Below are positions 23,747 through 57,553 of a stretch of 64,000 nt of DNA, one piece after another. The stretch comes from Nocardia sp. NBC_00565 (GTDB lineage Bacteria > Actinomycetota > Actinomycetes > Mycobacteriales > Mycobacteriaceae), in the NCBI RefSeq assembly GCF_036345915.1, contig NZ_CP107785.1, forward strand, positions 6,696,001-6,760,000, in the 5' to 3' direction. The notes under the pieces were generated by a model, which saw nothing but the letters and a program-made list of their open reading frames with translations, searched no databases and was not told the DNA's origin. The stretch's first letter is position 1; the number at the start of each line of letters is the position of its first letter. Both the position numbers and the translations under genes were made by a program.

Positions 23747-25095
23747 CGCACGCTCACCTCGCTGCCACGGAATGCGGGCGCACCGATCCTGGTGACCCAG
23801 CTGGGCACCTGGTCCGGCGAAACACCGTTCGCCGCACCGTAGATCGTGCCGAGGGTCTGCTGTTCGGTCGCCGAACCCACCGTGGTCGGCACGTTCGCGG
23901 CCGGGTACACGCCGAACTGCGGCGCCTCCAACTTGCCGCTGACCTGGTCGCCAGGGTTACGGCTCGGGACGGCATAGGAGCCGTCATTACTCGGTCCGCC
24001 GGTGTACTGCCCGGGATCGGTGAAGACCGGGTACTCCGGCACGCACCAGGGCCCTCGGGTATCCAGCCAGCGCGGCTCGTCCTGGTTGGGCAGGTATTTG
24101 CCACGAGTGTTGGTCAACTCGATGCTCACCCGCGAGCCGGGCCGCGAAGTGCCCATGCCCATGAGCTGGTCGATGCGCGGCTTCATCTTGGCGAAGTTCG
24201 CCAGCGCGCAGGTGTAGGTCGGTGAGTAGGTGGCCAGCAGTTCCAGCGCGGGGCGGGAGTCGGCGGCCAGGTCGATGATGTTGTCGCGGTTGGCGATCAG
24301 GAAGTCCGCGGTGGTGGCCGCGGTCGGATTCAGCGTGGCCAACAGGGTGTCGATCTGCGGGCGGCGCTGCACGATCGTCGCGTTGGTGGTGCGCAGATTG
24401 TCGAACGCGTCGACCAGTTGCGGTAGGGCATCGGAGTAGGTCGCGGCCACATCGGCGAAACTCACCAGATCCTGCTTGATATCGGGCATGACGCCGTTGA
24501 GGTCACGGAAGATGTTGTCCAACTTGTCGACCGACTCACCGAGCGCGAGGCCCTGGCCGGACAGCGCCTGCGACAGTGCGCCGAGGGTGGAGGCCAGATC
24601 CTGCGGCGGAATCGCCTGCAGCAGCGGCATCACGTCATCGAGCAGCTTGCTGATCTCGATGGCATTGCCGCTGGTGTCCTGATGGAGGGTCACACCATCG
24701 GTCAGGTGCTGCTTGCTGGCATCGTCGGGAATGACCAGGTCCACATACCGCTCACCGAAGAGCGTCTTCGGCAGCAGCCGGGCCGTCGCGTTGACCGGGA
24801 TCTGCTCGGCCTTGCCGGGATCGATCGCCAGGTCGAGGGTCACCTTGCCGCCCTCGGACCGGCTCGACCGCACCTCGCCGACATTGACGCCACGCACCTT
24901 CACATCGGCGTTGCGGGTCAACGCATTTCCCACGCTGTCGGTGATGAGATCGACCCGAACGGTCTCGACGAACGCCTTGTTGTAGATCGCGATCGTCGTC
25001 GCCAGGAACAGCGCACAGATCACGAAGAACGCGATACCGAGCAGCCGGATGCGCAACTTCTCCGTCGCGCGCCACATTTGCGTGCCGTTACTCAT
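23743..25095 (-). CDS. Mce family protein, MceA position
   Basis: 450 residues. A membrane helix at about 18-38 (LLGIAFFVICALFLATTIAI) is followed by the MCE domain (VDLITDSVGNALTRNADVKV, RGVNVGEVRSS, TLFGERYVDLVIP) and a long helical region. A C-terminal domain typical of MceA, with TRGPWCVPEYPVFTDPGQYT, closes the protein. The ATG overlaps the TGA of a 46-residue small ORF that lies between yrbEB and mceA and is made of repeat family B. Confidence 0.9.
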   Translation of the reverse strand: MSNGTQMWRATEKLRIRLLGIAFFVICALFLATTIAIYNKAFVETVRVDLITDSVGNALTRNADVKVRGVNVGEVRSSRSEGGKVTLDLAIDPGKAEQIPVNATARLLPKTLFGERYVDLVIPDDASKQHLTDGVTLHQDTSGNAIEISKLLDDVMPLLQAIPPQDLASTLGALSQALSGQGLALGESVDKLDNIFRDLNGVMPDIKQDLVSFADVAATYSDALPQLVDAFDNLRTTNATIVQRRPQIDTLLATLNPTAATTADFLIANRDNIIDLAADSRPALELLATYSPTYTCALANFAKMKPRIDQLMGMGTSRPGSRVSIELTNTRGKYLPNQDEPRWLDTRGPWCVPEYPVFTDPGQYTGGPSNDGSYAVPSRNPGDQVSGKLEAPQFGVYPAANVPTTVGSATEQQTLGTIYGAANGVSPDQVPSWVTRIGAPAFRGSEVSVR

Positions 25096-25232
25096 GACGG
25101 CACCTCACTGGCCATGATCTGTTCAGCTGTGTCTATTGTTCGCTCGCTCATGCCTGCGCCTCGCTGGCGCTCGGCTCCGGCACGAGCGCGCTGCTCGGCT
25201 GTGTCTATTGTTCGCTCGCTACGCTCGCTCAT
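25092..25232 (-). CDS. 46-residue small ORF built from repeat family B, between yrbEB and mceA
   Basis: The ATG at 25230-25232 overlaps the yrbEB stop (ATGA), and the TGA at 25092-25094 overlaps the mceA start (ATGA), so this short frame bridges the operon with coupling at both ends. It begins MSERSERTIDTAEQ and repeats MSERTIDTAEQ at residue 28, from two DNA copies of a 23-bp sequence at 25126-25148 and 25198-25220. It looks like an inserted repeat that kept the frame and both overlaps. Whether a peptide accumulates is unknown; its job may be ribosome hand-over to mceA (inference). No similar ORF is needed in typical mce operons. Confidence 0.6.
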   Translation of the reverse strand: MSERSERTIDTAEQRARAGAERQRGAGMSERTIDTAEQIMASEVPS

Positions 25233-25235
25233 CCG
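25124..25235 (-). repeat. Repeat family B, copy 1 (internally duplicated)
   Basis: In the gene direction it reads TGAGCGAGCGTAGCGAGCGA, then ACAATAGACACAGC, a spacer, GCCGAGCGCCAGCGAGGCGC, and a second first-half (TGAGCGAGCGAACAATAGAC). Sister elements precede hadAB, grcC, menD and menE in the same orientation relative to the following gene. Confidence 0.75.
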
Positions 25236-26095
25236 GCGACCCGCACTGTCGTGGTGGTGCCCCAGATGGCGAGGCTGAGGAAGAAGTCGAGCACGTTCAC
25301 CAACACGATCGCCGCGCGCACCGCGCGGCCAACGGCGACGCCGACTCCGGCCGGTCCGCCGGTGGCGTTGAAGCCGTAATAGCAGTGCACCATGATGATC
25401 ACGAACGCGAAGACCAGCACTTTGACGAATGAATACAAGACGTCTTCGGGTGGCAGGAACAGACTGAAATAGTGGTCATAGGAGCCACTGGACTGTCCGT
25501 TGAACCAGATGCTGATCATCCGCGATGCCAGGAACGTGCCGAGCAGGCCGACGATGTAGAGCGGGATGACCGCGAGGAAGCCCGCGATCACCCGGGTGGT
25601 GACCAGGAACGGCACACCGGGCACCGCCATCACCTCGAGCGCGTCGATCTCCTCGGATATCCGCATCGCGCCGAGCTGGGCGGTGAAACCACAACCGACC
25701 GTTGCCGATAGCGCCAACGCGGCGACCAGCGGCGCGATCTCGCGAGTGTTGATGTAGGCGGTGAGGAAGCCGGTCAGCACCGAGCTGCCGAGCGAGTCCA
25801 GTGCCTTGAAGCCCTGCAGGCCGACGACGACGCCGACCGAACCGGACATGAACACGATGACGCCGATGGTGCCGCCGATGACGGCCAGCGCACCGCTGCC
25901 GAAGGTCACCTCGGCCAGCAGCCGCATGACCTCCTTGCGGTAGTGCACGGCGGTGCGCGGAATCCAGGCAATGGCCTTGGAGTAGAACGACATCTGATCG
26001 CCGGCGCGGTCGATGATGTTCACCGGCATGCGCGCGATCTCACGGACCCGGCGGGCGGACTTGGCCAGGACCGGGGGGCGATAGGGGGTGGCCAC
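25229..26095 (-). CDS. yrbEB: MlaE-family permease of the mce transporter, YrbEB
   Basis: 288 residues with five or six membrane helices. The family signature is clear: an EI(D/A)-type coupling segment MRISEEIDALEVMAVPG that contacts the ATPase, and a glycine-rich ATVGCGFTAQLGAMRISEEI stretch. It forms the membrane dimer with YrbEA beneath the Mce hexamer. It starts three bases after the yrbEA stop. Its stop lies within the first bases of repeat family B. Confidence 0.92.
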   Translation of the reverse strand: MATPYRPPVLAKSARRVREIARMPVNIIDRAGDQMSFYSKAIAWIPRTAVHYRKEVMRLLAEVTFGSGALAVIGGTIGVIVFMSGSVGVVVGLQGFKALDSLGSSVLTGFLTAYINTREIAPLVAALALSATVGCGFTAQLGAMRISEEIDALEVMAVPGVPFLVTTRVIAGFLAVIPLYIVGLLGTFLASRMISIWFNGQSSGSYDHYFSLFLPPEDVLYSFVKVLVFAFVIIMVHCYYGFNATGGPAGVGVAVGRAVRAAIVLVNVLDFFLSLAIWGTTTTVRVAG

Positions 26096-26098
26096 GGG

Positions 26099-26893
26099 TC
26101 AGGCGCCCTTGGCGGGGACGACTTGCAAATACACCAGGGTCAGGACCAAGTTCACGAAGAACAGCACCATGAACGTGATAACCACGGATTGGTTCACCGC
26201 GTCTCCGACTCCTTTCGGGCCCCCTTTGGGATGTAACCCCTTGTACGCGGCGATCACGCCGGCGAGCAGACCAAATATCAATGCCTTGATCTCGCCGATC
26301 CAAAGGTCGGGCAACTGCGCAAGTGCCGAGAACGAAGCGAGGTAGGCGCCGGGCGTGCCGCCCTGCAGCAGCACATTGAAGAAATAGCCTCCGGCGATGC
26401 CGACCACCGATACCAGGCCGTTGAGCAGCACCGCGACCAGCATCATGCCGAGTACGCGCGGCACCACCAGCCGTTGGATCGGATCGACGCCGAGTACTTC
26501 CATCGCGTCGATCTCCTCACGGATGGTGCGCGAGCCGAGATCGGCGGCGACCGCCGATCCGGCCGCGCCCGCGATGATCAACGCGGTGACAACGGGGGCG
26601 GCCTGCTGGACGGTAGCCAGCACGCTGGTAGCGCCGCTAAAGGATTCGGCGCCGAGTTGTTTGATCAAAGAGCCGGTCTGCAGCGCGACAACCGCACCGA
26701 ATGGGATGGCGACCAGTGCGCTGGGCAAGATCGAGACACTCGCGATGAACCACGACTGCTCGATGAATTCGCGCACTTGGAAAGGCCGTTTGAACGTCTT
26801 GCGCAGTACGTCGATGAACAGCGCAAAGATGTTGCCGGCCTGGCCAAACCCCGACTCCAGAGGAGTCCGCAATCGCGCCAGGGTGGAATACAC
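26099..26893 (-). CDS. yrbEA: MlaE-family permease of the mce transporter, YrbEA
   Basis: 264 residues, GTG start. The coupling motif IREEIDAMEVLGVDPIQRLV and the preceding GAAGSAVAADLGSRT are the YrbEA counterparts of the YrbEB motifs. The N-terminal helix FIEQSWFIASVSILPSALVA is amphipathic. It starts 11 bases after mceG, so permeases, substrate-binding proteins and ATPase are encoded in one unit. Confidence 0.92.
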   Translation of the reverse strand: MYSTLARLRTPLESGFGQAGNIFALFIDVLRKTFKRPFQVREFIEQSWFIASVSILPSALVAIPFGAVVALQTGSLIKQLGAESFSGATSVLATVQQAAPVVTALIIAGAAGSAVAADLGSRTIREEIDAMEVLGVDPIQRLVVPRVLGMMLVAVLLNGLVSVVGIAGGYFFNVLLQGGTPGAYLASFSALAQLPDLWIGEIKALIFGLLAGVIAAYKGLHPKGGPKGVGDAVNQSVVITFMVLFFVNLVLTLVYLQVVPAKGA

Positions 26894-26904
26894 GATCGCA
26901 GATG

Positions 26905-27981
26905 TTACCCGTTAGTTGTGTTGTGGCGCACGGTAGTGTCGAATGACCCACCCTGGTATCCACCCTGGTCGCCGTTCTGATACGCCATCACCTGCGTGTC
27001 GTCGCTCTGATCAAGTGAGTCACGGATCGCCGCCTGGGCCGCGTGCGGCAGGGTATGCATGATTTCGCGGACGCGCGCCTGCCGACGAATCACTGCCTGG
27101 CGCACCGGCATTCCGGGCGTGGCACGCATCTGCAGAATGATGCCCTCGACCTCTTCGGCGCCACCGTGGTGGTGTCCGGCGTCGACGAGCGCCTGCTCGC
27201 GCGCCATCTGCGCCTCGTCCTTCTCCTCGGACATACCGATCGGACCGATCATGCGGCCGTTGAGGAACTGCTTGACCACCGGCTCCTCGGAGGTCAGCAA
27301 GACCTCACGGGGGCCGAACATGACCAGCGAGCGACGGAACAGCATCCCGATGTTGTCAGGGACGGTACGAGCCAGGTTGATGTTGTGCGTGACGATCAGG
27401 ATCGTCGCGTCGATCTGCGCGTTGATATCGATCAACAGCTGCGACAGGTAAGAGGTACGCACCGGATCCAGACCCGAGTCCGGCTCGTCGACCAGGATGA
27501 TCTGCGGGTCCAACACCAGCGCACGGGCCAAACCGGCACGCTTGCGCATACCACCGGAGATCTCACCGGGCAGCTTGTTCTCCGCGCCCAGCAGACCGGT
27601 CAGCTCGAGCTTCTCCATCACGATCTTCTTGATGTCGGACTCGGTCTTCTTGGTGTGCTCACGCAACGGGAACGCGACATTGTCGAACAGATTCATGGAC
27701 CCGAACAGCGCACCGTCCTGGAACAGCACACCGAACAGCTTGCGGATCTCGTACAGCTCCTTATTGGAGCAAGTAGTGATATCGGTGCCATCGATAAAGA
27801 TGGAGCCGCGCTCCGGACGCAGCAAACCGATAAGAGACTTCAGAAAGACCGACTTACCGGTACCCGAGGGGCCGAGCAGCGCGCTGACCTCCCCGGAGGG
27901 CAGCGTCAGGGAGACATCCTGCCAAATACGCTGTGAACCGAAAGACTTCGTAACACCCTCGGTCCTGACCTCGACGCCCAC
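26905..27981 (-). CDS. mceG: ABC transporter ATPase of the Mce system, MceG/Mkl
   Basis: 358 residues from GTG 27979-27981, chosen because GGAGG lies six bases upstream and because mycobacterial Mkl begins at the same place (MGV...V...GLTKSFGS). Walker A is GPSGTGKS, the signature is EISGGMRKRAGLA and Walker B is ILVDEPDSGLD. The C-terminal extension with ARVREIMHTLPHAAQAAI is characteristic of MceG. In M. tuberculosis one Mkl, encoded away from its mce operons, serves all of them. Here it heads an mce operon, so it may be the dedicated or the shared ATPase. Confidence 0.95.
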   Translation of the reverse strand: MGVEVRTEGVTKSFGSQRIWQDVSLTLPSGEVSALLGPSGTGKSVFLKSLIGLLRPERGSIFIDGTDITTCSNKELYEIRKLFGVLFQDGALFGSMNLFDNVAFPLREHTKKTESDIKKIVMEKLELTGLLGAENKLPGEISGGMRKRAGLARALVLDPQIILVDEPDSGLDPVRTSYLSQLLIDINAQIDATILIVTHNINLARTVPDNIGMLFRRSLVMFGPREVLLTSEEPVVKQFLNGRMIGPIGMSEEKDEAQMAREQALVDAGHHHGGAEEVEGIILQMRATPGMPVRQAVIRRQARVREIMHTLPHAAQAAIRDSLDQSDDTQVMAYQNGDQGGYQGGSFDTTVRHNTTNG

Positions 27982-28175
27982 GCCAAACCTCCACAATTTC
28001 TCAGCGAGCAGCCCACCGGCGAACCGCGCTATTCGGTATCACGGTGTGTCGCGTCACAGTGGGTGCGGTCACTGTATCCCATGAGCTTGACGCGGCACAC
28101 CCCAACCTGACCGAAGAGTAACCCCGAATCTCTCTCAGTATTCGCGTTACCGTGGCCACGCCACGGACAAAGCAA

Positions 28176-28204
28176 ACGGGCGGCCCCCAATGGGGACCGC
28201 CCGT
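28176..28204 (-). terminator. Terminator of rplJL
   Basis: On the minus strand ACGGGCGG and CCCC pair with GGGG and CCGCCCGT around a small loop, giving a 12-bp stem with one unpaired base per side, followed by TTTGCTTTGTC. It lies about 55 bases after rplL, beyond a family A repeat. Confidence 0.85.
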
Positions 28205-28214
28205 CAGGCGTGCC

Positions 28215-28243
28215 GCGAGCGACTGCTTGCAGGTCGCTCGAAA
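28215..28243 (-). repeat. Repeat family A, copy after rplL
   Basis: The plus strand reads AGCGACTGCTTGCAGGTCGC between GCG and TCGAAA; in the rplL direction this is TTTCGAGCGACCTGC, AAGCAGTCGCTCGC. The palindrome is extended here to CGAGCGAC/GTCGCTCG. It sits 16 bases after the rplL stop and 11 bases before the terminator. Confidence 0.8.
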
Positions 28244-28258
28244 AAGCCGGCTCGCGAA

Positions 28259-28636
28259 TTACTTGACGGAGACCTTGGCGCCGGCCTCTTCCAGCTTCGC
28301 CTTGGCAGCCTCGGCCGCATCCTTGGCGACCTTCTCCAGGATCGGCTTCGGGGCGCCCTCGACCAGGTCCTTGGCTTCCTTCAGGCCCAGGCCCGAGACG
28401 ATCTCCCGGACCACCTTGATGACTTGGATCTTCTTGTCGCCCGCACCCTCGAGGATGACGTCGAACTCGTCCTGCTCCTCGACGGCCTCGGCCGGAGCGG
28501 CACCGGCGACGGCGGCGACGGCGACCGGAGCAGCCGCGGTGACCTCGAACTTCTCCTCGAACTTCTTGACGAAGTCCGACAGCTCGAGCAGGGTCATGTT
28601 GCCGAAGGTCTCGAGCAGTTCGTCAACGTTGGCCAT
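28259..28636 (-). CDS. rplL: Ribosomal protein L7/L12
   Basis: 125 residues. An N-terminal dimerisation domain ([20 protein letters not shown]), an Ala/Pro/Val hinge (about 33-50) and the globular C-terminal domain ([20 protein letters not shown] ... [14 protein letters not shown]) that recruits translation factors. It is 66 bases downstream of rplJ and co-transcribed with it. Confidence 0.97.
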
Positions 28637-28702
28637 TGTTGTTTCCTTTCGGTAGTTGGTTGTCTATGAGGGCGAGTCGCGCACGAGTCACCCGCATGGG
28701 TG

Positions 28703-29242
28703 TTACTCGGCGGCCGCGCCGCCCTCTTCGGCCTGCTTCTTCTCCTGCAGGGCGGCGGCCAGGCGGGCCACCTGCGAAGCGGGAGCGTTGAACAGACCGG
28801 CAGCCTTCGCCAGATTGCCCTTCATGGCGCCGGCCAGCTTCGCCAGCAGCACCTCGCGGGACTCCAGGTCGGCGATCTTCTCGACCTCGGCAACGGACAG
28901 CGCGGCGCCGTCCATGTACCCGCCCTTGATGATGAGCGCCTTGTTGTCCTTGGCGAAGGTCTTGATGGCCTTCGCTGCGTCGACCGGCTCACCCTTGATG
29001 AAGGCGATGGCGGTCGGTCCGACGAACAAGTCGTCCAGGCCCACGACGCCCGCTTCCGCGGCCGCACGCTTGACCAGGGTGTTCTTGGCGACGGAGTAGG
29101 TAGCGCCTTCGCCGAGCGCGCGACGCAGATCGGTGATCTTGCCGACCGACAGACCACGGTATTCCGTGATGACGGTGGCCGACGAGCTCTTGAACTGCTC
29201 CGCGATCTCCGCGACCGCGGTGACCTTCTCGGGTTTTGCCAT
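28703..29242 (-). CDS. rplJ: Ribosomal protein L10
   Basis: 179 residues from the ATG at 29240-29242 ([17 protein letters not shown]), preceded by GAGGAGGCG. The rRNA-binding part contains [20 protein letters not shown] and [12 protein letters not shown]; the C-terminal helix carries L12 dimers. A longer frame upstream reads through a family A repeat and is not coding. The L10-L12 complex usually represses its own leader; the 300-nt leader here is suitable, but I cannot identify the site. Confidence 0.96.
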
Positions 29243-29300
29243 ACTTCGCCTCCTCTCTGGATGTCGGTTCGTATTCGAACTGCCGAGTACCAGGGGGTCG

Positions 29301-29335
29301 CTAGCGACTGCTTGCAGGTCGCTCGAAAGGGTCAG
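29301..29335 (-). repeat. Repeat family A, copy before rplJ
   Basis: In the rplJ direction it reads CTGACCCTTTCGAGCGACCT, GCAAGCAGTCGCTAG. It lies about 60 bases upstream of the rplJ start, inside the leader, and carries the complete CTGACC flank that defines the family's 5' edge. Confidence 0.8.
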
Positions 29336-29346
29336 CGACAAAGCAA

Positions 29347-29375
29347 ACGCCCCGAACGCAGAGCGTTCCGGGGCG
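29347..29375 (-). terminator. Hairpin with U-rich tail in rplJ leader
   Basis: CGCCCCGGAACGC pairs with GCGTTCGGGGCG (one bulged G) around TCT, followed on the minus strand by TTTGCTTTGTC. The same 13-base tail sequence (GACAAAGCAAACG on the plus strand) follows the rplL terminator. It may end the FMN reductase transcript or attenuate rplJL. Confidence 0.7.
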
Positions 29376-29549
29376 CAATAGAATTCTCGACCCGGGCAAG
29401 CCCGGACCTAGATTCCCAGCCTCGGCTCTCCCTGCGTGGGCCGCCAGCGATATCGCCGGACCTTCGACTACACCCATACGGGCACAGCGACCAACGGTCT
29501 TCGGTAGAACGGATTGGGTAGTTATCGAACTGGTCGATTACTGCTGCCC

Positions 29550-29579
29550 AGAGTACCTGGCGTGCCCACGATCTGCCAA
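29550..29579 (-). promoter_or_regulatory. Candidate rplJ promoter
   Basis: TTGGCA (complement of 29574-29579) and TACTCT (complement of 29550-29555) with an 18-bp spacer. Only the pattern supports it. Confidence 0.3.
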
Positions 29580-29660
29580 AACGGGGTCTACTTCTCGTGG
29601 CAATGCTGGGCTGACCCAAATCCGCAGAACCCCAGGGCCACTGCCCGTCGAGGCGATGGG

Positions 29661-32996: not shown

Positions 32997-33069
<73 letters not shown>

Positions 33070-33303: not shown

Positions 33304-34425
33304 TCAAGCCAGCTGCACCGTCGCGGTCGCGCGTCCGAAGATCTTCTTGCCCGCCGACTTCGCCACGATGGCGACGACCGCGGTCCGGGTCTCCGGATCC
33401 ACCGACTTCACCTTACCCGTGTACTCGACCTCGGCGGGCTCCTCGGAACCGACGTAGACCGGGCTGGTGAAGCGGACGTTGTACTCCTTGACCGCACCGG
33501 GATCGCCGAGCCAGGAGGTGACGAAACCGCCGCCGAGGCCCATCGTGAGCATGCCGTGCGCGACCACATTGTCCAGGCCGACCAGCTTGACGACCTCGTC
33601 ACTCCAGTGGATCGGATTCGCGTCGCCGGAGACGCCCGCGTAGTTCACCAGATCGCCGCGGGTCAGCCGGACGGTGCGCGCAGGCAGCTCGTCGCCGACG
33701 GTGACGTCCTCGAAGTTCAATGCGTGCTTGCTCGGCGCGATCTCGAGCACCGTGCTGACCGGCACCGGCGGCACACCGGCGGTCAGTGGCGTACGCGGGT
33801 GATGACTGGGGGCGTCCTCGTCGATACCGTGCATGAGCACGTTGCGGACCGCACCCTGCAGATTCGGGTCGATATCGCCGCCGCTGCGGCCGATCAGCGT
33901 GGTGTAGGTGGTGAGCACCAGCTCGTCGTTCGAAGTGACGATGTTCTTGGTGACGATGATGTCGCCACCGAAGGCCTGCCGGAACGAGTGCAGGTAGACA
34001 TCGCAGACCAGCTGATCGCCGACCTTGATCGGCCGGTGGAACTCCAGGATCTGATCGGTCTGCATGATCTGGCTGAGGTCGTAACCGGTGACGATCTGCT
34101 CGAAGAGCTTGCGCTGGGCCAGGATGCCGACCAGGGAGATGAACGTCAGCGGGGCGAGCAGGCTGTCGTGACCGAACTCCTGGGCGGAGTCCTCATCCCA
34201 GTGCAGCGGGTGGTAGTCCTGCACGGCGCGGGCGTATTCACGCACCTTCTCGCGGCCGACCTCGTAGTAGTCGTCGACGCGGTAGTGATGACCGACCATC
34301 GCCGCGGCATGCGCCGCCGGGTCGAACGCTTCGTCCGTTGCGACCGCTTCGTCTGTACCGGTGTTGATTGTCACGGGAGGACTGTACCTATCTGACCCCG
34401 CACCTGGGAGTCGACGAGCGGTCAC
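33304..34425 (-). CDS. hadAB: Fused (3R)-hydroxyacyl-ACP dehydratase subunits HadA/HadB
   Basis: 373 residues in the longest form. Residues about 40-185 resemble HadA (MVGHHYRVDDYYEVGREKVR, DYHPLHWDEDSAQ), the structural non-catalytic hotdog. Residues about 220-373 are HadB with the catalytic MaoC signature NYAGVSGDANPIHWSDEVVK (Asp and His of the hydratase dyad). In mycobacteria these are separate hadA and hadB genes followed by hadC; here A and B are fused and no hadC follows. The enzyme dehydrates beta-hydroxyacyl-AcpM in FAS-II elongation of mycolates. Start GTG 34425 overlaps the TGA of a repeat-derived small ORF; GTG 34374, with TACAGT six bases before it, could be a leaderless alternative. 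Confidence 0.9.
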   Translation of the reverse strand: MTARRLPGAGSDRYSPPVTINTGTDEAVATDEAFDPAAHAAAMVGHHYRVDDYYEVGREKVREYARAVQDYHPLHWDEDSAQEFGHDSLLAPLTFISLVGILAQRKLFEQIVTGYDLSQIMQTDQILEFHRPIKVGDQLVCDVYLHSFRQAFGGDIIVTKNIVTSNDELVLTTYTTLIGRSGGDIDPNLQGAVRNVLMHGIDEDAPSHHPRTPLTAGVPPVPVSTVLEIAPSKHALNFEDVTVGDELPARTVRLTRGDLVNYAGVSGDANPIHWSDEVVKLVGLDNVVAHGMLTMGLGGGFVTSWLGDPGAVKEYNVRFTSPVYVGSEEPAEVEYTGKVKSVDPETRTAVVAIVAKSAGKKIFGRATATVQLA

Positions 34426-34511
34426 GACTGCACCTCGCTAGCGCTCGGCTCCGTCGTGACCGCATGGGCGGCTGTGCCTGATCGCTCTCTCGCTATCGCT
34501 CGTTCGCCCAC
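34422..34511 (-). CDS. 29-residue small ORF from repeat family B, before hadAB
   Basis: GTG at 34509-34511 opens a frame (start VGERAIARERSGTA, end EPSASEVQS) whose TGA (34422-34424) overlaps the first hadAB GTG as GTGA. The same DNA element precedes mceA, menD and menE with the same overlap. The reading frame through the first half differs slightly from the SERSER version, so conservation appears to be of DNA and of the terminal overlap rather than of the peptide. Confidence 0.45.
   Translation of the reverse strand: MGERAIARERSGTAAHAVTTEPSASEVQS
34424..34511 (-). repeat. Repeat family B, copy 2 (before hadAB)
   Basis: In the gene direction it reads GGGCGAACGAGCGATAGCGA, GAGAGCGATCAGGCACAGCC, then a spacer and GGAGCCGAGCGCTAGCGAGG. 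Its second half matches the other copies almost exactly; the first half is degenerate. Confidence 0.65.
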
Positions 34512-34854: not shown

Positions 34855-34927
34855 TAGCGATGGCCGGACTTGAACCGGCGACACAACGATTATGAGTCGT
34901 TTGCTCTACCGACTGAGCTACACCGCC
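34855..34927 (-). tRNA. tRNA-Met (CAT), elongator
   Basis: 73 nt. GGCGGTG pairs with CATCGCT (with G-U at two positions), discriminator A. The anticodon loop reads CTCATAA, and the TPsiC arm is GGTTCAAGTCC. The 1-72 G-U pair and lack of three consecutive G-C pairs at the anticodon stem argue for elongator rather than initiator. Confidence 0.93.
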
Positions 34928-35001: not shown

Positions 35002-35074
35002 AGCCCCCTAACGGAATCGAACCGTTGACCTTTTCCTTACCATGGAAACGCTCTGCCGACTGAGCTAAGGGGGC
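35002..35074 (-). tRNA. tRNA-Thr (GGT)
   Basis: 73 nt. GCCCCCT pairs with AGGGGGC, discriminator U. The anticodon loop ATGGTAA contains GGT, and the TPsiC arm is GGTTCGATTCC. It is the first of a tRNA-Thr, tRNA-Met, rpmG series. Confidence 0.95.
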
Positions 35075-35900: not shown

Positions 35901-35983
35901 GGCAGGTTGCCCGAGCGGCCAATGGGAGCAGACTGTAAATCTGTCGGTGAAAGCCTACGTAGGTTCGAATCCTACACCTGCCA
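35901..35983 (+). tRNA. tRNA-Tyr (GTA)
   Basis: 83 nt with a long variable arm. GGCAGGT pairs with ACCTGCC, discriminator A. The anticodon arm is CAGACTGTAAATCTG, and the TPsiC arm is GGTTCGAATCC. A strong terminator follows directly. Confidence 0.96.
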
Positions 35984-37640: not shown

Positions 37641-38741
37641 TTACCCGACGCGTTCGATGGTGTAGCGGACCAGGCGCTCCAGCGCGTCGTTGGCCGGGCC
37701 CGACGGCAGCGCGGAGAGTTCGGCATGCGCGATATCCGCGTAGCCCTGCAGCTTCTCCTTGGCCAGCACCATGCCCCGCGAATGGGCGAGCAGGGCGAGC
37801 GCCTCGTCGACCTCGTCGTCGGTCTGCAGCGGATGCGCCAGTAGCTTGCGCAGGCGGTCGCCCTCGGTGCCCTCGTCGCGCAGTGCGTACAGCACCGGCA
37901 GGGTATGCACGCCCTCGCGCAGGTCGGTACCCGGTGTCTTACCGGACTGTTCGGTGGCCGAGGAGATGTCGATGATGTCGTCGGAGATCTGGAAGGCGGT
38001 GCCGACCGCGTCGCCGAGCCGGGCCAGTCGTTCGACGTGCTCGGTGTCGGCTCCGGAGAAGGTGCCGCCGAAGCGTCCGGCGGCCGCGATCAGCGAACCG
38101 GTCTTCTCCCAGACCACGCGGAGATAGTGCTCCACCGGATCCTGGGATTCGCGCGCGCCCATGGTTTCGCGCATCTGGCCGGTGACCAGTTCGGCGAAGG
38201 TCTCGGCGATGATCCGCACCGCGTCCGGACCGAGGGTCGAGGTGAGCCGGGACGCGTGCGCGAAGAGATAGTCGCCGGCGAGGATGGCGATGCTGTTGCC
38301 CCAGCGCGAATTCACGCTCGGGGCGCCGCGGCGCATCGGGGCCTCGTCCATCACGTCGTCGTGGTAGAGGGTTGCCAGGTGCACCAGCTCGACCACGGTG
38401 CCGGCGGTGATCAGCTCGGGATCGGTCGGGCGCGGCCCGAGTTGGCCGGTGAGGATGGTGAACAGGGGACGGAATCGCTTACCGCCGGCCTTTGCCAGAT
38501 GCAGCGCCGCTTCCTGTAGGAAGTCCTCGCCGTCGGAAAGCTCGTCGATCAGGAGTTTTTCGACATCGATGAGTCCATTGCGCACAGTCACGGCGAGCTC
38601 GGTGTCACCGAGATCGACCCCGGCCACCACAGTGCTCTCGTCACTCCCGTCTGCGGCTCGCTGGCGCTCACCTCCGCCGGGAGCGGCGCACGCTGTGTCC
38701 ATGATTCGCTCGCTCCGCTCGCTCATAGCCGATGTGCTCAT
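37641..38741 (-). CDS. grcC: Polyprenyl diphosphate synthase, GrcC type
   Basis: 366 residues from ATG 38739-38741, preceded by GGAGAAGAA. Both aspartate-rich motifs are present: YHDDVMDEAPMRRG (first) and SDDIIDISS (second), which bind Mg-diphosphate of the allylic and growing chains. It probably makes the long isoprenoid side chain of menaquinone, fitting its place beside menJ. The first 35 residues are odd: after five codons the sequence runs MSERSERIMDTA and GGERQRAADG, which is repeat family B fused in frame before the conserved VVAGVDLGD start. Without the repeat a start at GTG near VVAGVD would be expected. Confidence 0.9.
   Translation of the reverse strand: MSTSAMSERSERIMDTACAAPGGGERQRAADGSDESTVVAGVDLGDTELAVTVRNGLIDVEKLLIDELSDGEDFLQEAALHLAKAGGKRFRPLFTILTGQLGPRPTDPELITAGTVVELVHLATLYHDDVMDEAPMRRGAPSVNSRWGNSIAILAGDYLFAHASRLTSTLGPDAVRIIAETFAELVTGQMRETMGARESQDPVEHYLRVVWEKTGSLIAAAGRFGGTFSGADTEHVERLARLGDAVGTAFQISDDIIDISSATEQSGKTPGTDLREGVHTLPVLYALRDEGTEGDRLRKLLAHPLQTDDEVDEALALLAHSRGMVLAKEKLQGYADIAHAELSALPSGPANDALERLVRYTIERVG
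38642..38726 (-). repeat. Repeat family B, copy 3 (inside grcC 5' end)
   Basis: In the gene direction ATGAGCGAGCGGAGCGAGCG, AATCATGGACACAGC, a spacer, then GGTGAGCGCCAGCGAGCCGC. It lies within the grcC reading frame rather than before it. Confidence 0.7.
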
Positions 38742-51916: not shown

Positions 51917-52193
51917 CGGGTCTCCTCGGCAGCGGACATCACGCACTGATGGAGACGGGGCATGCCGGCGAAATTCATCGGTGCGCCGAACCGCGTAGCG
52001 ATCCGCACGCGTCCGAGGCGATCCGACGTATCGAGGAGCCCGAGTAGCAAGGAGGTTGCCGTGCAGCGCGACTAGGAGCATTCTCGACAGTGTTGGACTG
52101 TTGTCCGCCTGCGCTGTGATTTCCACAGCACCGGGTATTCGCTCCGCGAGACCGGGTACCCGTCCGAAAAGCATGCGCGGAGAGGAGTGAACG

Positions 52194-52436
52194 ATGACCG
52201 ATCACAGCACGTCCCGCACTCTGGACGAGGTTCCGGAAGCCGATCTCGTCGAGCAGTCCGTCCCCGCCTACCCCGAGGATCCCGCATACGCCGAAGACAC
52301 GGCGGACGACGGCGTCGAAAGCGATCTCGCGGCGGCGGTCGACCGGGACGCATTCAGCGCCGATCCGGCCGATGTCGTCGAACAGTCGATCGCGGTGCCC
52401 CTCGACGACGATCACGAACCTGGGCCTGGGTACTGA
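52194..52436 (+). CDS. Small acidic protein with internal repeat
   Basis: 80 residues, net strongly acidic, no Cys or membrane segment. A motif occurs twice: EADLVEQSVPAYPED (about 15-29) and PADVVEQSIAVPLDDD (about 58-73). GGAG precedes the ATG. Similar small acidic proteins with VEQ...PLDDD endings occur in mycobacteria and relatives, function unknown. It is convergent with menD. Confidence 0.6.
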   Translation: MTDHSTSRTLDEVPEADLVEQSVPAYPEDPAYAEDTADDGVESDLAAAVDRDAFSADPADVVEQSIAVPLDDDHEPGPGY

Positions 52437-52496
52437 CCCCTGCGTCGATCACACGACGCCGGCCATTGCCGAACTCGCGTCCGGCCGGATACGACC

Positions 52497-54131
52497 TCAC
52501 GGCGCGATCTTGGCGCGCACCGTCGCGTGTAGCTCGCGCAGGCTGGAGCGTTCGGTTGCCACTTCGAGCACGCGCAAACCGTGTGCGTGTCCGGCCAATT
52601 CGACCGCCAACTGCTCGGTATCGACCTGCTTGTGCGGGATGCGATACGCGGCGCACAGCGCGGCCAGGTCCATGCCGTGCGGTGTGCCGAAAACGCGCTC
52701 GAAGACACCCGCGTACTGCGGATCGCCCTGTTCGAGGAGTTCGAAGATGCCGCCGCCGTCGTCATTGGCGACCACGATGGTCAGATCGGCGGGGCGGGGT
52801 TCGCCGCGGCCGATGAGCAGACCGGCGGCGTCGTGCAGGAAGGTGAGGTCACCGATCAGCGCGATGGTGCGGCCGGTGTGGTGCAGTGCCGCGCCGACGG
52901 CCGTGGAGACGGTGCCGTCGATGCCTGCGACGCCACGGTTGGAGAGCACGTGGATGCCGGGACGCGGATGGGAGACCAGCGCCGCGTCCCGGACCGGGTT
53001 GGACGCGCCGAGCAGTAACTGGTCGCCCTCGTGTAGTGCGTCCATCACCACGGCGGCCACATGCAGGCCCGTCTGTTTCGGATGCCGGGCGAGTTCGGCG
53101 TGCACCACCTGGGTGGCCTTCGCATCCAGTTCCCGGCAGTACTCGAGCCACTCGGCGCGCGGCGCTCCCGTGGTGACCGCCCGGGTTCCGGTGCCGACCA
53201 CATTGCCGGAAACATCGGGCCAGCGCGGCCCGGTGGTGAGCGCGTAGACGGTGACGGCCGGATCCGCGAGCACCTTCGCGACCTGACGATGCAGGGTGGG
53301 ACGCCCGGTGATGATCGCCTGACGCGGCTTCAGCAGCGGCAACGCGAGCGGATGCAAGGCCGGGCCGTGCATGGGGGCGGTAGGTTCGGCGACCGTCGGC
53401 AGCGCGGCGAGCTCCGGACGCAGCCCCGCGCCATGGCCGGAGATGACCACGGTGTCGGGCGTCAGATCCAGGTCGAGCGGCACATCGAGCGTCGCGTACT
53501 GGGTGCAGGTCCAAGCCTCGCCGCTGACGCGTCCCGCGGGGGCGGATTCGCCCGGCGCGAGGTCGGGGACCAGCGGCTCACGCAATGGAATATCGAAATG
53601 CACCGGGCCGGCATTGCCGGAGCGGGTGCCGCGGGCCGCGGCGAGCACTCGGCAGACCGCCGAGCGCCACTGGCTGTTCTGCTGGCTGTAGGGCTCGGAT
53701 TCGGATTCCTGCTCGGCCAGCCCGAGGCTGATCGAAGCCCGGACCTGACTACCGAATAGGCCGAACTGTTCCACGGTCTGATTGGCACCGGAGCCGAGCA
53801 TTTCGTAGGGCCGGTTGGCGCTGAGCACCACCAGTGGAATCCGTGCGTAGTTGGCCTCCAGCACGGCGGGACCGAGATTGGCGACGGCGGTCCCTGAGGT
53901 CATCACGACCGGTACGGGCAGCCGACTGGCAACCGCCAGTCCAATGGCGAGAAACCCCGCGGTCCGTTCGTCGATGCGCATATGCAGCCGGAGTCGGCCC
54001 GCCGCGTCGGCCGCCTGGAGCGCGAAGGCCAGCGGCGCGTTCCTCGACCCCGGACACAGCACGACATCGCGCACACCACCGCGCGCGAGTTCGTCGACGA
54101 CCACCTGCGCCTGCGCTGTAGACGGATTCAC
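52497..54131 (-). CDS. menD: 2-succinyl-5-enolpyruvyl-6-hydroxy-3-cyclohexene-1-carboxylate synthase
   Basis: 544 residues, GTG start ([19 protein letters not shown]). ThDP enzyme: the catalytic glutamate segment [18 protein letters not shown], the [12 protein letters not shown] loop and the Mg-ThDP motif [11 protein letters not shown] ... [15 protein letters not shown]. It joins isochorismate and 2-oxoglutarate. The start overlaps the TGA of a 17-residue small ORF, which itself overlaps a repeat-derived small ORF, giving a chain of GTGA junctions. Confidence 0.95.
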
Positions 54132-54181
54132 GCCTCCAGCCTCTCAGACAGTTGCCTCGCCGTCTCCGTCACCCTGGTCAC
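54128..54181 (-). CDS. 17-residue small ORF coupling the menD leader to menD
   Basis: GTG 54179-54181 ([17 protein letters not shown]) overlaps the TGA of the preceding small ORF; its own TGA (54128-54130) overlaps the menD GTG. The sequence would form an amphipathic helix and may be the last helix of a lost upstream gene. Evidence is positional only. Confidence 0.35.
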
Positions 54182-54273
54182 ACTGGCACCTCGCCAGCGC
54201 TCGGCACCCTAGCGCTCGGCACCATTGTGCCCGAGGGGCCTGCGCCGATGGTTCGCTCGCTGCGCTCCCTCAC
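54178..54273 (-). CDS. 31-residue small ORF from repeat family B, upstream of menD
   Basis: GTG 54271-54273 opens VRERSERTIGAGPSGTMVPS, ending VPSAGEVPV. The TGA at 54178-54180 overlaps the next GTG. It has the SERSER start of the mceA, menE and grcC copies. Confidence 0.45.
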   Translation of the reverse strand: MRERSERTIGAGPSGTMVPSARVPSAGEVPV

Positions 54274-54275
54274 AC
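54182..54275 (-). repeat. Repeat family B, copy 4 (before menD)
   Basis: In the gene direction GTGAGGGAGCGCAGCGAGCG, AACCATCGGCGCAGG, a spacer, then two near-identical units GGTGCCGAGCGCTAGGG and GGTGCCGAGCGCTGGCGAGG. The second-half motif is duplicated here, while the first half is duplicated in the mceA copy. Confidence 0.7.
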
Positions 54276-54467
54276 ACAGGTGTTCGACTGGGATTTTGCC
54301 GCCCGCGCCCACCACCGGACGCGGGCGGCCGGAATGCGCCGCAGACCGAAATTCCACCTCACCGAAGTGGATTGGTATGCGGCGCAAACGATCACTGCTC
54401 ACGCGCCCACCACGGAGCGAGTCCTACAAGCGACCGTTCGCAGCGCCGCAGGCGCTGCAAATTCAAC

Positions 54468-54911
54468 TCAAGCGTGGCGCTGAACAAGGTCGCCCAGCCG
54501 GGGCAGGGCTTCGATGACGTTCTTCTTGGCCGAGGAGCGCATCGACGAGTAGACCTTCCTCAGCGCTGGCCGCGTCGAGGCTTCGGCACGCGCGTCGGTC
54601 ACCGCGAGCAAAGCCTCGGCGACCTCATCGGACTTGGCGACCAGCAGGTCGGCGAACTTGCCGGATCCCGTCGCCGTGTATTCCTGCCAGAACGGCTCCA
54701 GTTGCGATACGAGCTTGGGCGCCAAGGACTCCAGCGCGTCCGGCACGATGGACGGACTGATCTTCTTGACCGCCGCGTACCCACCCTTGACGGCCAGGCC
54801 CGACGCACCACCCTTGTCCGACACCTCGGCGTCCAGAACCTCCTTGGCATCGGCAAGGAAGGCCGTGCGCTTTGCGTCGTCGAGCAGGGATTCAGACAGT
54901 GCTGCAACCAC
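54468..54911 (-). CDS. DUF6918-like helical protein
   Basis: 147 residues from GTG 54909-54911, with GGAGG eight bases before it. All-helical: DDAKRTAFLADAKEVLDAEV, SDKGGASGLAVKGGYAAVKK and SIVPDALESLAPKLVSQLEP form the conserved DAEVxDKxGxSGxAVKxxYxxVK core of a family widespread in mycobacteria and Nocardia. No membrane segments, function unknown. Confidence 0.75.
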   Translation of the reverse strand: MVAALSESLLDDAKRTAFLADAKEVLDAEVSDKGGASGLAVKGGYAAVKKISPSIVPDALESLAPKLVSQLEPFWQEYTATGSGKFADLLVAKSDEVAEALLAVTDARAEASTRPALRKVYSSMRSSAKKNVIEALPRLGDLVQRHA

Positions 54912-55064
54912 TTTCAGGTTCCTCCGGATTGATGTCGATGAACGAGCGCACGCCACTATACGCACTGGTGCGCGTAGTCACACGGCGCTCTTGCGCAAAT
55001 GGGGCGCAGCCGGACGAAGTCCGCCGTCAGTCCTTGCGCGTGGCGAGCGGAGGCGGAGCCCCGC

Positions 55065-55802
55065 CTAAGGCTGCCACGGGAGCAATTGGATCATTAATCC
55101 TTCACAATCCGCAAGGACATTGCCCTGCTCATCGGCCAATTCCGCGGTGATGAAGGTCTTGCGCCCTTCGATGCGATCGACGCGACCGCGGACCGTCAGC
55201 GACTGTTCCAGCGGAGTGATCTTGCGATAGTTCACATGCAGATACGCGGTGCGGCTGATCGGTCGCCCGGCGTAGTGCACGATCATGCCGAGCAGGTCGT
55301 CGAAGAGCAGCGGCAGCACGCCGCCATGCGCCGCGCCATTGCCGCCGAGATGGTAGCGGCGGAACTCACCGGTCATCTCGATGCCGTCGGGCCCGGCCTC
55401 GACCACCCGCCACGGCAGCAGCAAAAGGCTGCCGCGCCCGGGCAATTCGACGGCGCGCCCCGCGGGGCCCTGGAGTTCGGGCGCGCGGTAGGGCTCGAGC
55501 AGTTCGTTCAACTCGCGCACCTTCGCGAGCGCGTCACCGAAGACCTCGTCCGGGGCATCGACAGAGACGGCCAGATCCTGCAGCGTGCGCATGGCCTCGA
55601 CGAACGGCGCGAAGTTCGCCCCGATCCGCGCGCGGGAGACCTTGGGGAAGCCGCCGTGCCGCTCGTACCGGGATTCGTCCACCGCGCTGTGGTCGATGCG
55701 CGGACCGGCCGATCGCCCATCCGGAACCTGTTTCACTGCCTCACGCCCACCCGTCTCCCGACCGCCACCCCTTATGGAATCGCTACCCGATGCTGCACTC
55801 AT
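55065..55802 (-). CDS. PaaI-type acyl-CoA thioesterase
   Basis: 245 residues. The C-terminal hotdog domain (about 145-240) contains the active-site region YHLGGNGAAHGGVLPLLFDD and HVNYRKITPLEQSLTVRGRV; a long N-terminal helical part (about 45-115) is typical of the mycobacterial paralogues. Divergent from menB, whose open frame overlaps its start by a few bases. In this location it could hydrolyse DHNA-CoA, the MenB product, but that is inference from position only. Confidence 0.8.
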   Translation of the reverse strand: MSAASGSDSIRGGGRETGGREAVKQVPDGRSAGPRIDHSAVDESRYERHGGFPKVSRARIGANFAPFVEAMRTLQDLAVSVDAPDEVFGDALAKVRELNELLEPYRAPELQGPAGRAVELPGRGSLLLLPWRVVEAGPDGIEMTGEFRRYHLGGNGAAHGGVLPLLFDDLLGMIVHYAGRPISRTAYLHVNYRKITPLEQSLTVRGRVDRIEGRKTFITAELADEQGNVLADCEGLMIQLLPWQP

Positions 55803-55927
55803 ACCTGCACGGTATCGCGTTGTTTTACACCGTCAAGTCGAACTCGTCGGTAACCGGATCGGCGCCAGCGCAGTTTGCCGGGAAGTCGCTGACCACTTGT
55901 GCACGGACGCGGGCAATAATCACTCGG

Positions 55928-56821
55928 GTGACGTTCAACCCGAAGCTATGGCGGCCCGTTCCAGGGTTCGAGAATCTGACCGACATCACCTACCACCGGC
56001 ATATCGACCAGGGCACCGTCCGCGTGGCCTTCGATCGGCCGGAGGTGCGCAACGCATTCCGCCCCCATACGGTCGATGAGCTCTATCGCGCACTCGATCA
56101 CGCCAGGATGTCCGCCGACGTGGGCGCGGTCCTGATCACCGGCAACGGCCCGAGTCCCAAAGACGGCGGCTGGGCCTTCTGCTCCGGCGGCGACCAGCGC
56201 ATCCGCGGTCGCAGCGGCTATCAGTACGCCGAGGGCGAGACCGCCGACACCGTCGACCAGGCCCGTGCGGGACGGCTGCACATCCTCGAGGTGCAGCGGC
56301 TGATCCGGTTCATGCCGAAGGTGGTCATCGCGCTGGTGAACGGCTGGGCCGCGGGTGGCGGGCACAGCCTGCATGTGGTCTGCGATCTGACCCTGGCCAG
56401 CCGCGAGCAGGCCCGGTTCAAGCAGACCGACGCCGACGTCGGCAGCTTCGACGGCGGTTACGGCAGCGCCTATCTCGCGAAAATGGTCGGCCAGAAATTC
56501 GCGCGCGAAATCTTCTTCCTCGGCCGCCCCTACACCGCCGAGGAAATGCATCAGATGGGCGCGGTGAACAAGGTTGTCGATCACGCCGAACTGGAGGATG
56601 TCGCGCTGGAGTGGACCGCCGATATCAACGGCAAATCCCCGCAGGCCCAGCGCATGCTGAAGTACGCGTTCAACCTGCTCGACGACGGCCTGGTCGGCCA
56701 GCAGCTCTTCGCGGGCGAGGCCACCCGGATGGCCTATATGACCGATGAAGCGGTCGAGGGCCGCGACGCCTTCCTGGAGAAGCGCAAGCCGGACTGGGCG
56801 CCCTACCCCTGGTATTTCTGA
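55928..56821 (+). CDS. menB: 1,4-dihydroxy-2-naphthoyl-CoA synthase
   Basis: 297 residues from GTG 55928-55930. Crotonase fold with the MenB signatures GGWAFCSGGDQRIRGRSGYQ and NGWAAGGGHSLHVVCDLTLA (oxyanion hole), QTDADVGSFDGGYGSAYLA, and the C-terminal VEGRDAFLEKRKPDWAPYPW. The aspartate of FCSGGDQR belongs to the active-site loop. A longer frame to ATG 55790 is possible but overlaps the divergent thioesterase and lacks conservation. AATAAT eight bases before the GTG would suit a leaderless mRNA. Confidence 0.95.
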   Translation: MTFNPKLWRPVPGFENLTDITYHRHIDQGTVRVAFDRPEVRNAFRPHTVDELYRALDHARMSADVGAVLITGNGPSPKDGGWAFCSGGDQRIRGRSGYQYAEGETADTVDQARAGRLHILEVQRLIRFMPKVVIALVNGWAAGGGHSLHVVCDLTLASREQARFKQTDADVGSFDGGYGSAYLAKMVGQKFAREIFFLGRPYTAEEMHQMGAVNKVVDHAELEDVALEWTADINGKSPQAQRMLKYAFNLLDDGLVGQQLFAGEATRMAYMTDEAVEGRDAFLEKRKPDWAPYPWYF

Positions 56822-56822
56822 G

Positions 56823-57215
56823 ATGGACATCCTGAGCAGCCGGGTCATTCTGCGGCCGGCCGACTACCGAACGACTCTCGCGTTCTACCGCGATGGACTC
56901 GGGTTGGCGATCGCGCGGGAGTATCCGGGCGGCACGGTTTTCTTCGCTGGACAGTCGCTGGTCGAGGTGGCCGCGCACGGTGGATCGGGCAATTCCACGG
57001 CCTTCGAAGGCGCGCTCTGGCTGCAGGTACGCGACATTTCGGACGCGGCGGCCGAGCTCGCTCTGCGGGGCATTCGCATCGATCGGCCGCCGGTTCAGGA
57101 GCCGTGGGGACTGATCGAAATGTGGGTGCGCGATCCGGACGGGGTGCCGATCGTTTTGGTCGAGGTGCCTGCCGAGCATCCGATTCGGCGGGATTCGCGC
57201 TGGTCACCGGATTGA
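56823..57215 (+). CDS. VOC family protein
   Basis: 130 residues. The ATG lies one base after the menB TGA, so translation is probably coupled. Paired beta-alpha-beta units are seen in RVILRPADYRTTLAFYRDGL and PWGLIEMWVRDPDGVPIVLV; Glu residues (SLVEVAAHG, LVEVPAEHP) could bind metal. Its tie to the men genes is positional; substrate unknown. Confidence 0.8.
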   Translation: MDILSSRVILRPADYRTTLAFYRDGLGLAIAREYPGGTVFFAGQSLVEVAAHGGSGNSTAFEGALWLQVRDISDAAAELALRGIRIDRPPVQEPWGLIEMWVRDPDGVPIVLVEVPAEHPIRRDSRWSPD

Positions 57216-57472
57216 TCGCGGCGGCAGCGGCGGCTCGGGCGAACGGCCCGAGTTGCCAATGCCGACCCCGGCGAGGACGATAACGCACGGATGGCCACCC
57301 GACCGCCGACGTCCGGGTGACCGCCACTGAGTACCGTCCTCCGAGTGAATCGCAGTCTCGATGTCTGGCGTACCCGAGTTCCGTTCCCCTGACGCGGCAC
57401 AAGCTTCACGGCGCCGCCCCAGCAACCGACCCGTTCCACCCGAGGCGGCGGCGACATGACACGATCAGCGTC

Positions 57473-57549
57473 GTGAGGGAGCGCAGCGAGCGAACCACAG
57501 GCACAACGCCTCTGGGCACAACGGAGACAAGCGACAGCGAGGCGAAGTT
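57473..57549 (+). repeat. Repeat family B, copy 5 (before menE)
   Basis: GTGAGGGAGCGCAGCGAGCG, AACCACAGGCACAAC, a spacer, then ACAAGCGACAGCGAGGCGAA. The first 22 bases are identical to the menD copy, although the two copies are on opposite strands and 3.2 kb apart. The 257 bp before it, after the VOC gene, show nothing else. Confidence 0.7.
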
Positions 57550-57553
57550 GTGA
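57473..57553 (+). CDS. 26-residue small ORF from repeat family B, before menE
   Basis: GTG 57473-57475 opens VRERSERTTGTTPLGTTETS, ending SDSEAKL. Its TGA (57551-57553) overlaps the menE GTG as GTGA. This copy is the shortest and closest to the downstream start. The frame remains open further upstream, so the real start is uncertain. Confidence 0.45.
   Translation: MRERSERTTGTTPLGTTETSDSEAKL

Follow-up and report, generated by a model that had tools for sequence, protein, structure and literature searches.

A MIRU-like mobile repeat at Nocardia start codons that probably enforces translational coupling with a gene-matched hairpin hiding the start

Arrays of mycobacterial interspersed repetitive units (MIRUs) are used for the typing of tuberculosis strains, and the description of the units is reportedly due to Supply et al. 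in 1997. In the accessible parts of three papers (PMC12548453, PMC4213456, PMC2734929), MIRUs are repeats of 40–100 bp, with 77-bp and 53-bp units, which occur in tandem or singly and are seemingly mobile. According to the same parts, insertion at start codons couples an inner open reading frame (ORF) to the host gene with a spacing of −4 (PMC12548453, PMC4213456, PMC2734929), and what such repeats do exactly is poorly understood (PMC2734929). Here we describe a repeat of this kind in Nocardia sp. NBC_00565, whose genome is a single contig of 9.71 Mb. It was noticed in a stretch of 64,000 nt (positions 6,696,001–6,760,000), referred to below as the window. The first-pass annotation of the window reported a two-part repeat at five loci and knew of no named system for it; this last statement has to be corrected, MIRUs being described in the same terms (PMC12548453). 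The element lies at start codons, and its variable middle is complementary to the start of the gene that it precedes. We consider it probable that it is a MIRU-like mobile repeat and that a hairpin matched to each host gene hides the start codon and so makes translational coupling obligatory. Insertion at starts and the associated features are already MIRU-like; the gene-matched arm, with its two hairpins, is the new part.

The repeat model, profile R1, was built from 23 copies on sequence alone. It gives 122 matches in the genome at E ≤ 0.1, of which 104 are below 1e-5. Four of the 122 were dropped for want of a fetched sequence and 14 of the remaining 118 were left out because they lack a 3′ RTGA. 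From the 104 copies thus retained, eight with an unlike loop were excluded from the pairing set and 18 without a clear 5′ RTGA from the spacing set, leaving 86 in the latter. The 5′ half of the element consists of RTGA, GCGAGCGNAGCGAGCGAA, a less conserved stretch and CACAGC. The 3′ half consists of the variable middle, GGAGCCGAGCGNCAGCGAGGNGNAG, three variable bases and the RTGA of the host gene; the GAGG within GGAGCCGAGCGNCAGCGAGGNGNAG stops 7 bases short of the host start. The motif GAGCG-N-AGCGAG adjoins each RTGA of the element. Start-to-start spacing ranges from 55 to 82 nt; among the 86 copies with RTGA at both ends, 40 have a spacing of 77 nt and 22 one of 80 nt. There are 17 copies that face another copy in tandem, so that the element, like MIRUs, is a short dispersed repeat within the 40–100 bp range, single or tandem. 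No Rfam family matches at the elements, and a length of 55–82 nt leaves no room for a gene inside them. A literature search for MSERSER, the reading of the 5′ end, returned unrelated papers only. A bare 18-mer was rejected as a genome-wide marker (86 matches with at most two mismatches, against 64 for the reversed pattern). Within the window it has seven matches with at most three mismatches, against 1.71 expected (0 of 100 shuffles reach seven), and four of the seven lie inside elements.

The spacing keeps one frame in 75 of the 86 copies, and in 73 of the 86 there is a clean small ORF, its TGA overlapping the RTG that follows, as in the −4 coupling of the inner ORF of MIRUs. The earlier reading of the second half in two different frames is therefore not upheld. 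The accompanying view that conservation concerns the nucleic acid and not the peptide can now be put more sharply, the variable middle being constrained by pairing with the host start. Of the 87 RTGA that face a gene, 75 begin an open frame of 100 codons or more; for the 910 RTGA of the window the figure is 251. An upstream open frame of that minimum length is closed by the 5′ TGA in 37 of 71 first copies, against 128 of 910. About half of these copies thus occupy overlapping stop–start sites, and the remaining ones sit at starts that lack one. MIRUs too are described at start codons, oriented with the following gene, and also at overlapping stop–start sites.

Orthologous loci with and without the element were compared by protein searches, which cover for each gene at most the best 30 of 59 loci. 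The gene hemA, named by NCBIfam, is empty in 18 of the best 30 of 59 loci, where it directly follows a conserved GGTGGTCACACC-ATGAG or a near variant. In genome G158 the left flank CACC-ATGA is retained, the element follows, and the gene continues at GTC-ATGAGC. By eye, about 18 of 25 relatives have no element at metG and share the upstream stretch TTACAGTAGACACACC-ATG; to us this stretch reads like a leaderless promoter. The metG element is present in G000, G165, G203 and G046, and element-like N-termini are found in three further relatives (by eye). Because the gene start varies among relatives, metG cannot tell whether the gene or the element changed first. The gene menE is empty in G193, filled in G000 and G199, and preceded by shortened or other inserts in several relatives. 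The element is found before lysA in about eight of the best 30 of 59 loci (by eye); for gene 3537129, one of 25 relatives has it, which is little informative. As read from these alignments (menE, hemA, lysA, metG), insertion is shown to occur exactly at the start codon, RTGA. The empty and filled sites together indicate that the element takes the native start codon for its leader ORF and supplies the gene with a new one. The earlier suggestion of a spreading element agrees with this exact insertion beside empty orthologous sites, with the orientation along the gene and with the 73 overlaps in 86 copies. Presence and absence at orthologous sites between species also parallel the apparent mobility of MIRUs.

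Two observations concern the same start sites. The MetG proteins of G046, G162, G190 and G176 (L357–L360) begin with MSERSER-like codons, as if the 5′ end of the element had been fused to the gene. At the menE start codon, L149, L153 (about 27 bp), L155, L169 and others carry shortened or different inserts, and the site seems to have been repeatedly hit or eroded.

The central result concerns the variable middle, hereafter arm 2. With the first base of the start codon numbered 0, gene-side position t faces element base −31−t. When partners are exchanged among the 79 gene-facing copies, the true pairing stands out with z = 11.5 at positions −3 to −1, 8.0 at position 0 and 11.2 at positions 5 to 8, and falls to −0.1 at positions 10 to 13. 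In register z is 11.8, against about 0 at slides of −1 and +1. Within strata of equal NNN-RTGA, pairing at positions 4 to 8 keeps z = 8.9. The pairing is repeated in 97 distinct copies from relatives, where it extends to +10, and G–U pairs increase the paired fraction at positions −2 and +1. In a hand-picked alignment of 29 rows from three genera (A3), 84.8 per cent of the positions pair, against 67.2 per cent when shuffled and 23–49 per cent when slid, and there are 72 changes on both sides against 29.1 in shuffled alignments.

Named genomes were also scanned with a pattern made of the GGTCATG anchor and the loop, in which the bases facing codon 3 were free. This yielded 57 stretches, 55 in Nocardia records and two in Kribbella. 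Of 69 matches, three that were cut off or without RTGA, 14 that face another copy and one duplicate were removed, leaving 51 distinct gene-facing copies. The third codon of the host is matched at all three bases in 40 of the 51, at two in 10 and at none in one; shuffling gives a mean of 4.9 complete matches and a maximum of 14 in 2000 shuffles. Several of the 51 are mutual orthologues (the MSAPVxGKSYDR gene accounts for six rows), and the set may overlap other relatives sampled earlier; without three Nocardia species already sampled, 33 of 43 match completely. The fit depends on the class of copy. Among copies with a well-kept loop, the 80-nt class matches all three codon-3 bases in 12 of 20 cases in the genome itself and 31 of 35 in relatives, and the remaining classes lie between the 80-nt class and the weakly fitting 77-nt class. 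The two Kribbella copies (L374 and L406, in Kribbella antibiotica and Kribbella sandramycini) are full copies outside Nocardia; one fits the third codon of its host at three of three bases and the other at none of three.

Arm 2 also pairs with an upstream segment, arm 1. This was tested in three classes of 72, 28 and 41 copies taken from 194 distinct copies. In the 80-nt class (72 copies) z is 11.1 in register and 3.1, −0.3, 1.0 and 1.0 at slides of −2, −1, +1 and +2; the 77-nt class (41 copies) gives z = 7.2 in the best of eight registers tried, and the third class (28 copies) z = 4.4. Since arm 2 pairs both with arm 1 and with the start, two mutually exclusive hairpins are possible, and arm 1 is approximately a direct copy, arm 2 an inverted copy, of codons 2–3.

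The comparison of sites thus shows that the element inserts exactly at an RTGA start codon; the native start context stays on the left, where it now begins an ORF of about 26 codons that belongs to the element, and the right end gives the gene a new RTGA, overlapped by the TGA of the element. Covariation shows that arm 2 pairs with about 12 nt at the new start (−3 to +8), including the gene-specific bases of codons 2–3. For the rest we propose the following course of events. In the mRNA this hairpin would hide the start codon and hold GAGG in its loop, so that free ribosomes would rarely initiate, and a ribosome finishing the small ORF would open the hairpin and re-initiate at the host gene. 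The gene would be forced into coupling with the captured start, and the element would be tolerated in housekeeping genes with little harm. The hairpin of arm 1 with arm 2 would be the alternative, open state. The earlier idea that a spreading element passes ribosomes on to the following start is consistent with the data.

Predicted folding agrees with this proposal in part. The start codon is predicted to be paired at 0.865 in the 79 element-preceded starts and at 0.56 in 12 ordinary starts of the window. Among hemA orthologues the values are 0.81 for filled (9) and 0.58 for other loci (21), and among lysA orthologues 0.74 (11) and 0.48 (18), the rule for calling a lysA locus filled being loose. 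Several results speak against the proposal. The gain in start pairing from matched over exchanged gene starts is modest (0.858 against 0.799; higher with arm 2 in 55 of the 79 copies), and filled and other menE orthologues both stand at 0.40 (3 and 6 loci; 9 of 30 usable). The number of pairs with a change on both sides in the 29-row alignment (8) is not unusual beside that in shuffled alignments (6.4), 51 of 500 shuffles reaching 8. Among 77-nt copies with a well-kept loop, all three codon-3 bases match in only 1 of 18 in the genome itself and in 0 of 10 in relatives, and a G–G mismatch at +4 is common in the 80-nt class. The hemA copies of G157, G205 and G187 have only a partial arm fit, and in G193 the lysA gene has changed without compensation (both by eye). 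In the window, two of the six units are altered, and at menE only GTTGTG (−3 to +2) pairs as a single run. In view of the modest folding gain and the menE result, the proposal that the hairpin blocks free initiation and that leader ribosomes re-initiate is rated as probable and not more.

The leading alternative is that insertion itself produces the fit to the host gene, the inner arm being a guide that locates start codons by base pairing or being rewritten from the target each time, and coupling a by-product or a second use. It is compatible with the coupling explanation, and we regard it as possible, if short of probable. A related and more specific proposal concerns the 80-nt subfamily. 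Its insertion would be tailored to the target, either because the start is found by base pairing or because host codon 3 is copied inverted at each insertion, with GGTCATG as an anti-start anchor. The matched bases would complete a hairpin by which the leader ORF controls translation of the gene, and the element would customise its own regulatory RNA; we put this forward tentatively, as a serious possibility. The fixed anchor GGTCATG is itself an anti-start-codon. Pairing at positions 5 to 8 is highest in the 61 copies closest to the consensus (3.05 of 4) and at chance level (1.70) in the 12 most decayed ones (1.58 of 4). This is the opposite of the trend that slow adaptation after insertion predicts, although the decayed copies may merely be non-functional. 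The two closest-backbone pairs within one genome differ at 3 and 4 of 62 backbone positions and at 8 and 6 of 11 middle positions, each middle fitting its own gene. In 28 pairs with at most six backbone differences, the middles differ on average at 5.6 of 11 positions, with an own fit of 3.6 of 4 and an exchanged fit of 2.3; some close-backbone pairs, however, carry the same middle. In tandem arrays the middle of an upstream copy mostly still fits the gene, the outcome expected from tandem duplication.

Changes in place require more than insertion. Orthologous sets were compared in 20 of 22 cases, two sets and row L211 being set aside on inspection by eye for differing protein starts. Where the gene side differs among orthologues, both members of the comparison are paired (Watson–Crick or G–U) in 58 of 119 site-pairs, against 12 with exchanged partners, and by Watson–Crick pairs only in 39 against 0; site-pairs within one set are not independent. 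A fully compensated change is found in 7 of the 20 sets, 15 of which have target differences. For example, ATG with CAT changes to GTG with CAC between L119 and L121, and for codon 3 of hemA, G000 has GTT opposite AAC where G158 has ATT opposite AAT. The bases at −3 to −1, moreover, belong to the element, so that a copying of the target cannot explain why they covary with the middle. Selection must therefore also have acted on the hairpin. No mobilising enzyme was identified, no search for an enzyme acting in trans having been made.

It is unlikely, in our view, that the palindromic arms act on DNA, as transposition ends, protein-binding sites or single-stranded hairpins, and leave translation unaffected, with the small ORF only limiting the damage. 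Small mobile repeats do often depend on DNA hairpins, the GAGCG-N-AGCGAG motif stands beside each RTGA, and the fit is best in consensus-like copies. However, the compensated changes, including those of ATG or GTG with CAT or CAC, arose in place long after insertion, and the contribution of G–U pairs at −2 and +1 suits RNA. It is very improbable that subfamily structure, base composition or the choice of hits produced the complementarity as an artefact: subfamilies with linked features, a G+C-rich genome, non-independent orthologous rows and the z values retained at slides of +2, +3 and +6 (2.4, 5.0 and 2.5) lend this reading something, but it is contradicted by the stratified test, by the collapse of pairing at slides of −1 and +1 and in the slid 29-row alignments, and by the finding of copies by sequence alone, the codon-3-blind scan included.

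The copies in the window are listed in table 1. R1 matches at all five loci of the first-pass annotation, and all copies have the same orientation relative to the following gene (four loci on the − strand, menE on the + strand). Before the mce gene the upstream unit measures 81 nt from its own ATG (25232) to the next (25151), and its frame of 46 codons passes through the second unit and ends at 25092. The second unit contains a 19-codon frame from ATG 25151, and its TGA, ending at 25092, overlaps the mce ATG at 25095. The hadAB copy, with a diverged 5′ end, has a 29-codon leader from GTG 34511 whose TGA overlaps GTG 34425 (34422/34425), and the menE copy a 26-codon leader whose TGA overlaps GTG 57550 (57553/57550); the four-base overlap noted at these three loci is thus confirmed. 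It was also right that at menD, where the first leader has 31 codons (GTG 54273 to TGA 54178), a second small ORF (54181–54128) provides the overlap, and that the polyprenyl synthase gene and its element form one continuous frame from ATG 38726. A long arm match is found in the window only at the 34422 copy, where 11 consecutive nucleotides (GTCGTGACCGC) are exactly complementary. The earlier gene names stand for menD, menE, HadA/HadB and the MCE family, which NCBIfam places above cut-off; for grcC they stand in part, the polyprenyl synthase being supported by Pfam and the best NCBIfam model (nonaprenyl diphosphate synthase) staying below cut-off.

Table 1. The repeat, its predicted start hairpins and its host genes in the window.
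Feature	Position	Strand	Basis
First (upstream) unit of tandem pair before mce gene	25147..25231	−	R1 match, frames
Second, shortened tandem unit (56 nt) before mce gene	25092..25146	−	R1 match at E = 0.008, frames
Host gene, MCE family protein	23743..25095	−	Pfam Mce4_CUP1 and MlaD; TIGR00996 above cut-off
Copy before hadAB	34422..34511	−	R1 match 34422–34505, frames
Predicted start hairpin, hadAB copy	34417..34464	−	34453–34464 faces 34417–34428
Host frame, fused HadA/HadB dehydratase	33304..34425	−	NF040620 above cut-off
Copy fused in frame to polyprenyl synthase gene	38645..38725	−	R1 match, 82-nt spacing, no stop
Host gene, polyprenyl synthase with element-encoded N-terminus	37641..38726	−	Pfam polyprenyl_synt; 361-codon frame from ATG 38726
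Copy before menD, second half altered	54178..54273	−	R1 match 54209–54273 (model 1–68 only), frame
Second small frame before menD, 17 codons	54128..54181	−	Overlaps first leader and menD GTG 54131
Host gene menD	52497..54131	−	TIGR00173 above cut-off
Copy before menE	57473..57553	+	R1 match, 77-nt spacing, frame
Predicted start hairpin, menE copy	57511..57558	+	57511–57522 faces 57547–57558
Host gene menE	57550..58710	+	NF005877 above cut-off; Pfam AMP-binding

The hadAB host frame matches HadA only from residue 44 onwards, and an inner GTG (34374) lies behind a stretch that we judge to resemble a leaderless promoter (window 34360–34425). GTG 34425 may therefore not be the native start, and the element may sit upstream of it. 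Four tRNA genes lie near this site (32997–33069, 34855–34927, 35002–35074 (−) and 35901–35983 (+)). Elsewhere in the genome, the copy G000:C1:7855568-7855652 (L018, L060) faces the left arm of a terminator-like palindrome and not a long gene, and its middle resembles the right arm of that palindrome. Two upstream copies at different loci (G000:C1:4975243-4975328 and 8606739-8606823) have an identical middle, CCGAGCACTCGCTCGTGCC, which fits the start of the next element copy and not the gene.

With strict filters, R1 finds the element in 12 of 151 genomes of the family and in three of 30 genera. A structure model, R2, finds it in 56 of 401 genomes and six of 30 genera: in 51 of the 56 genomes of the same genus and in one genome in each of five other genera. 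Within the genus, G216, G226, G179, G160 and G168 give no match under these stricter filters. Outside the genus, the matches in g13 and g15 are clear and were also found by R1, four copies from g13 and g15 having stood in the training set of R2; the other three genomes have one weak match each. Among 20 chosen relatives, 19 have between 2 and 101 copies by R1, and one, G167, has none.

The rich set of copies in Nocardia, with empty sites and series of orthologues, makes both the movement and the function of such an element testable. To account for the gene-matched arm, either start codons must be read during insertion or strong selection must place housekeeping starts, among them those of hemA, lysA, metG, menD and menE, behind a mobile leader ORF. 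If insertion is indeed tailored to the target, a mobile element would customise a regulatory RNA for each host gene. There is also a consequence for annotation, since some host proteins bear N-termini encoded by the element (the polyprenyl synthase; MetG in some relatives).

Among known systems, leader-peptide attenuators such as the erm leaders combine a small ORF with arms that pair in two exclusive ways, one of which hides a start. The Nocardia element likewise has a small ORF followed by arms with two exclusive pairings, but is without a known effector or stalling peptide. Guide-dependent mobile elements, such as group II introns and IS200/IS605, recognise their target by pairing with a short inner segment. 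In one reading the Nocardia element would do the same; unlike these, it is seen with no ribozyme or transposase, and its inner segment varies by copy. Classical cases of translational coupling by mRNA structure are known. Such enforced coupling is reviewed in PMC12548453, as far as its accessible part goes. The likeness lies in an upstream ORF that ends on the next start and in a proposed hairpin that hides this start, the start pairing being backed by covariation in Nocardia; the difference is that the Nocardia unit is dispersed and mobile, with a hairpin that varies from gene to gene. The enterobacterial repeats RU-1, RU-2 and RU-3 (103–168 bp) are small mobile intergenic repeats resembling miniature inverted-repeat transposable elements and proposed to carry ORFs, and a start-codon site is not mentioned for them in the accessible part of their description (PMC2759123). 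The open-licence literature searched contains no report of the element in Nocardia, nor of MIRUs with an arm matched to the gene. For MIRU typing, a primer printed in PMC2657100 and PMC3004912 has no match in the genome contigs. The likeness to MIRUs, as these are described, extends to the site, the orientation, the inner ORF, the −4 overlap, the tandem arrays and the 77-bp units. From MIRUs as described the Nocardia element appears to differ in its gene-fitted middle, in its second, exclusive hairpin and in being genus-wide in Nocardia (51 of 56 sampled genomes).

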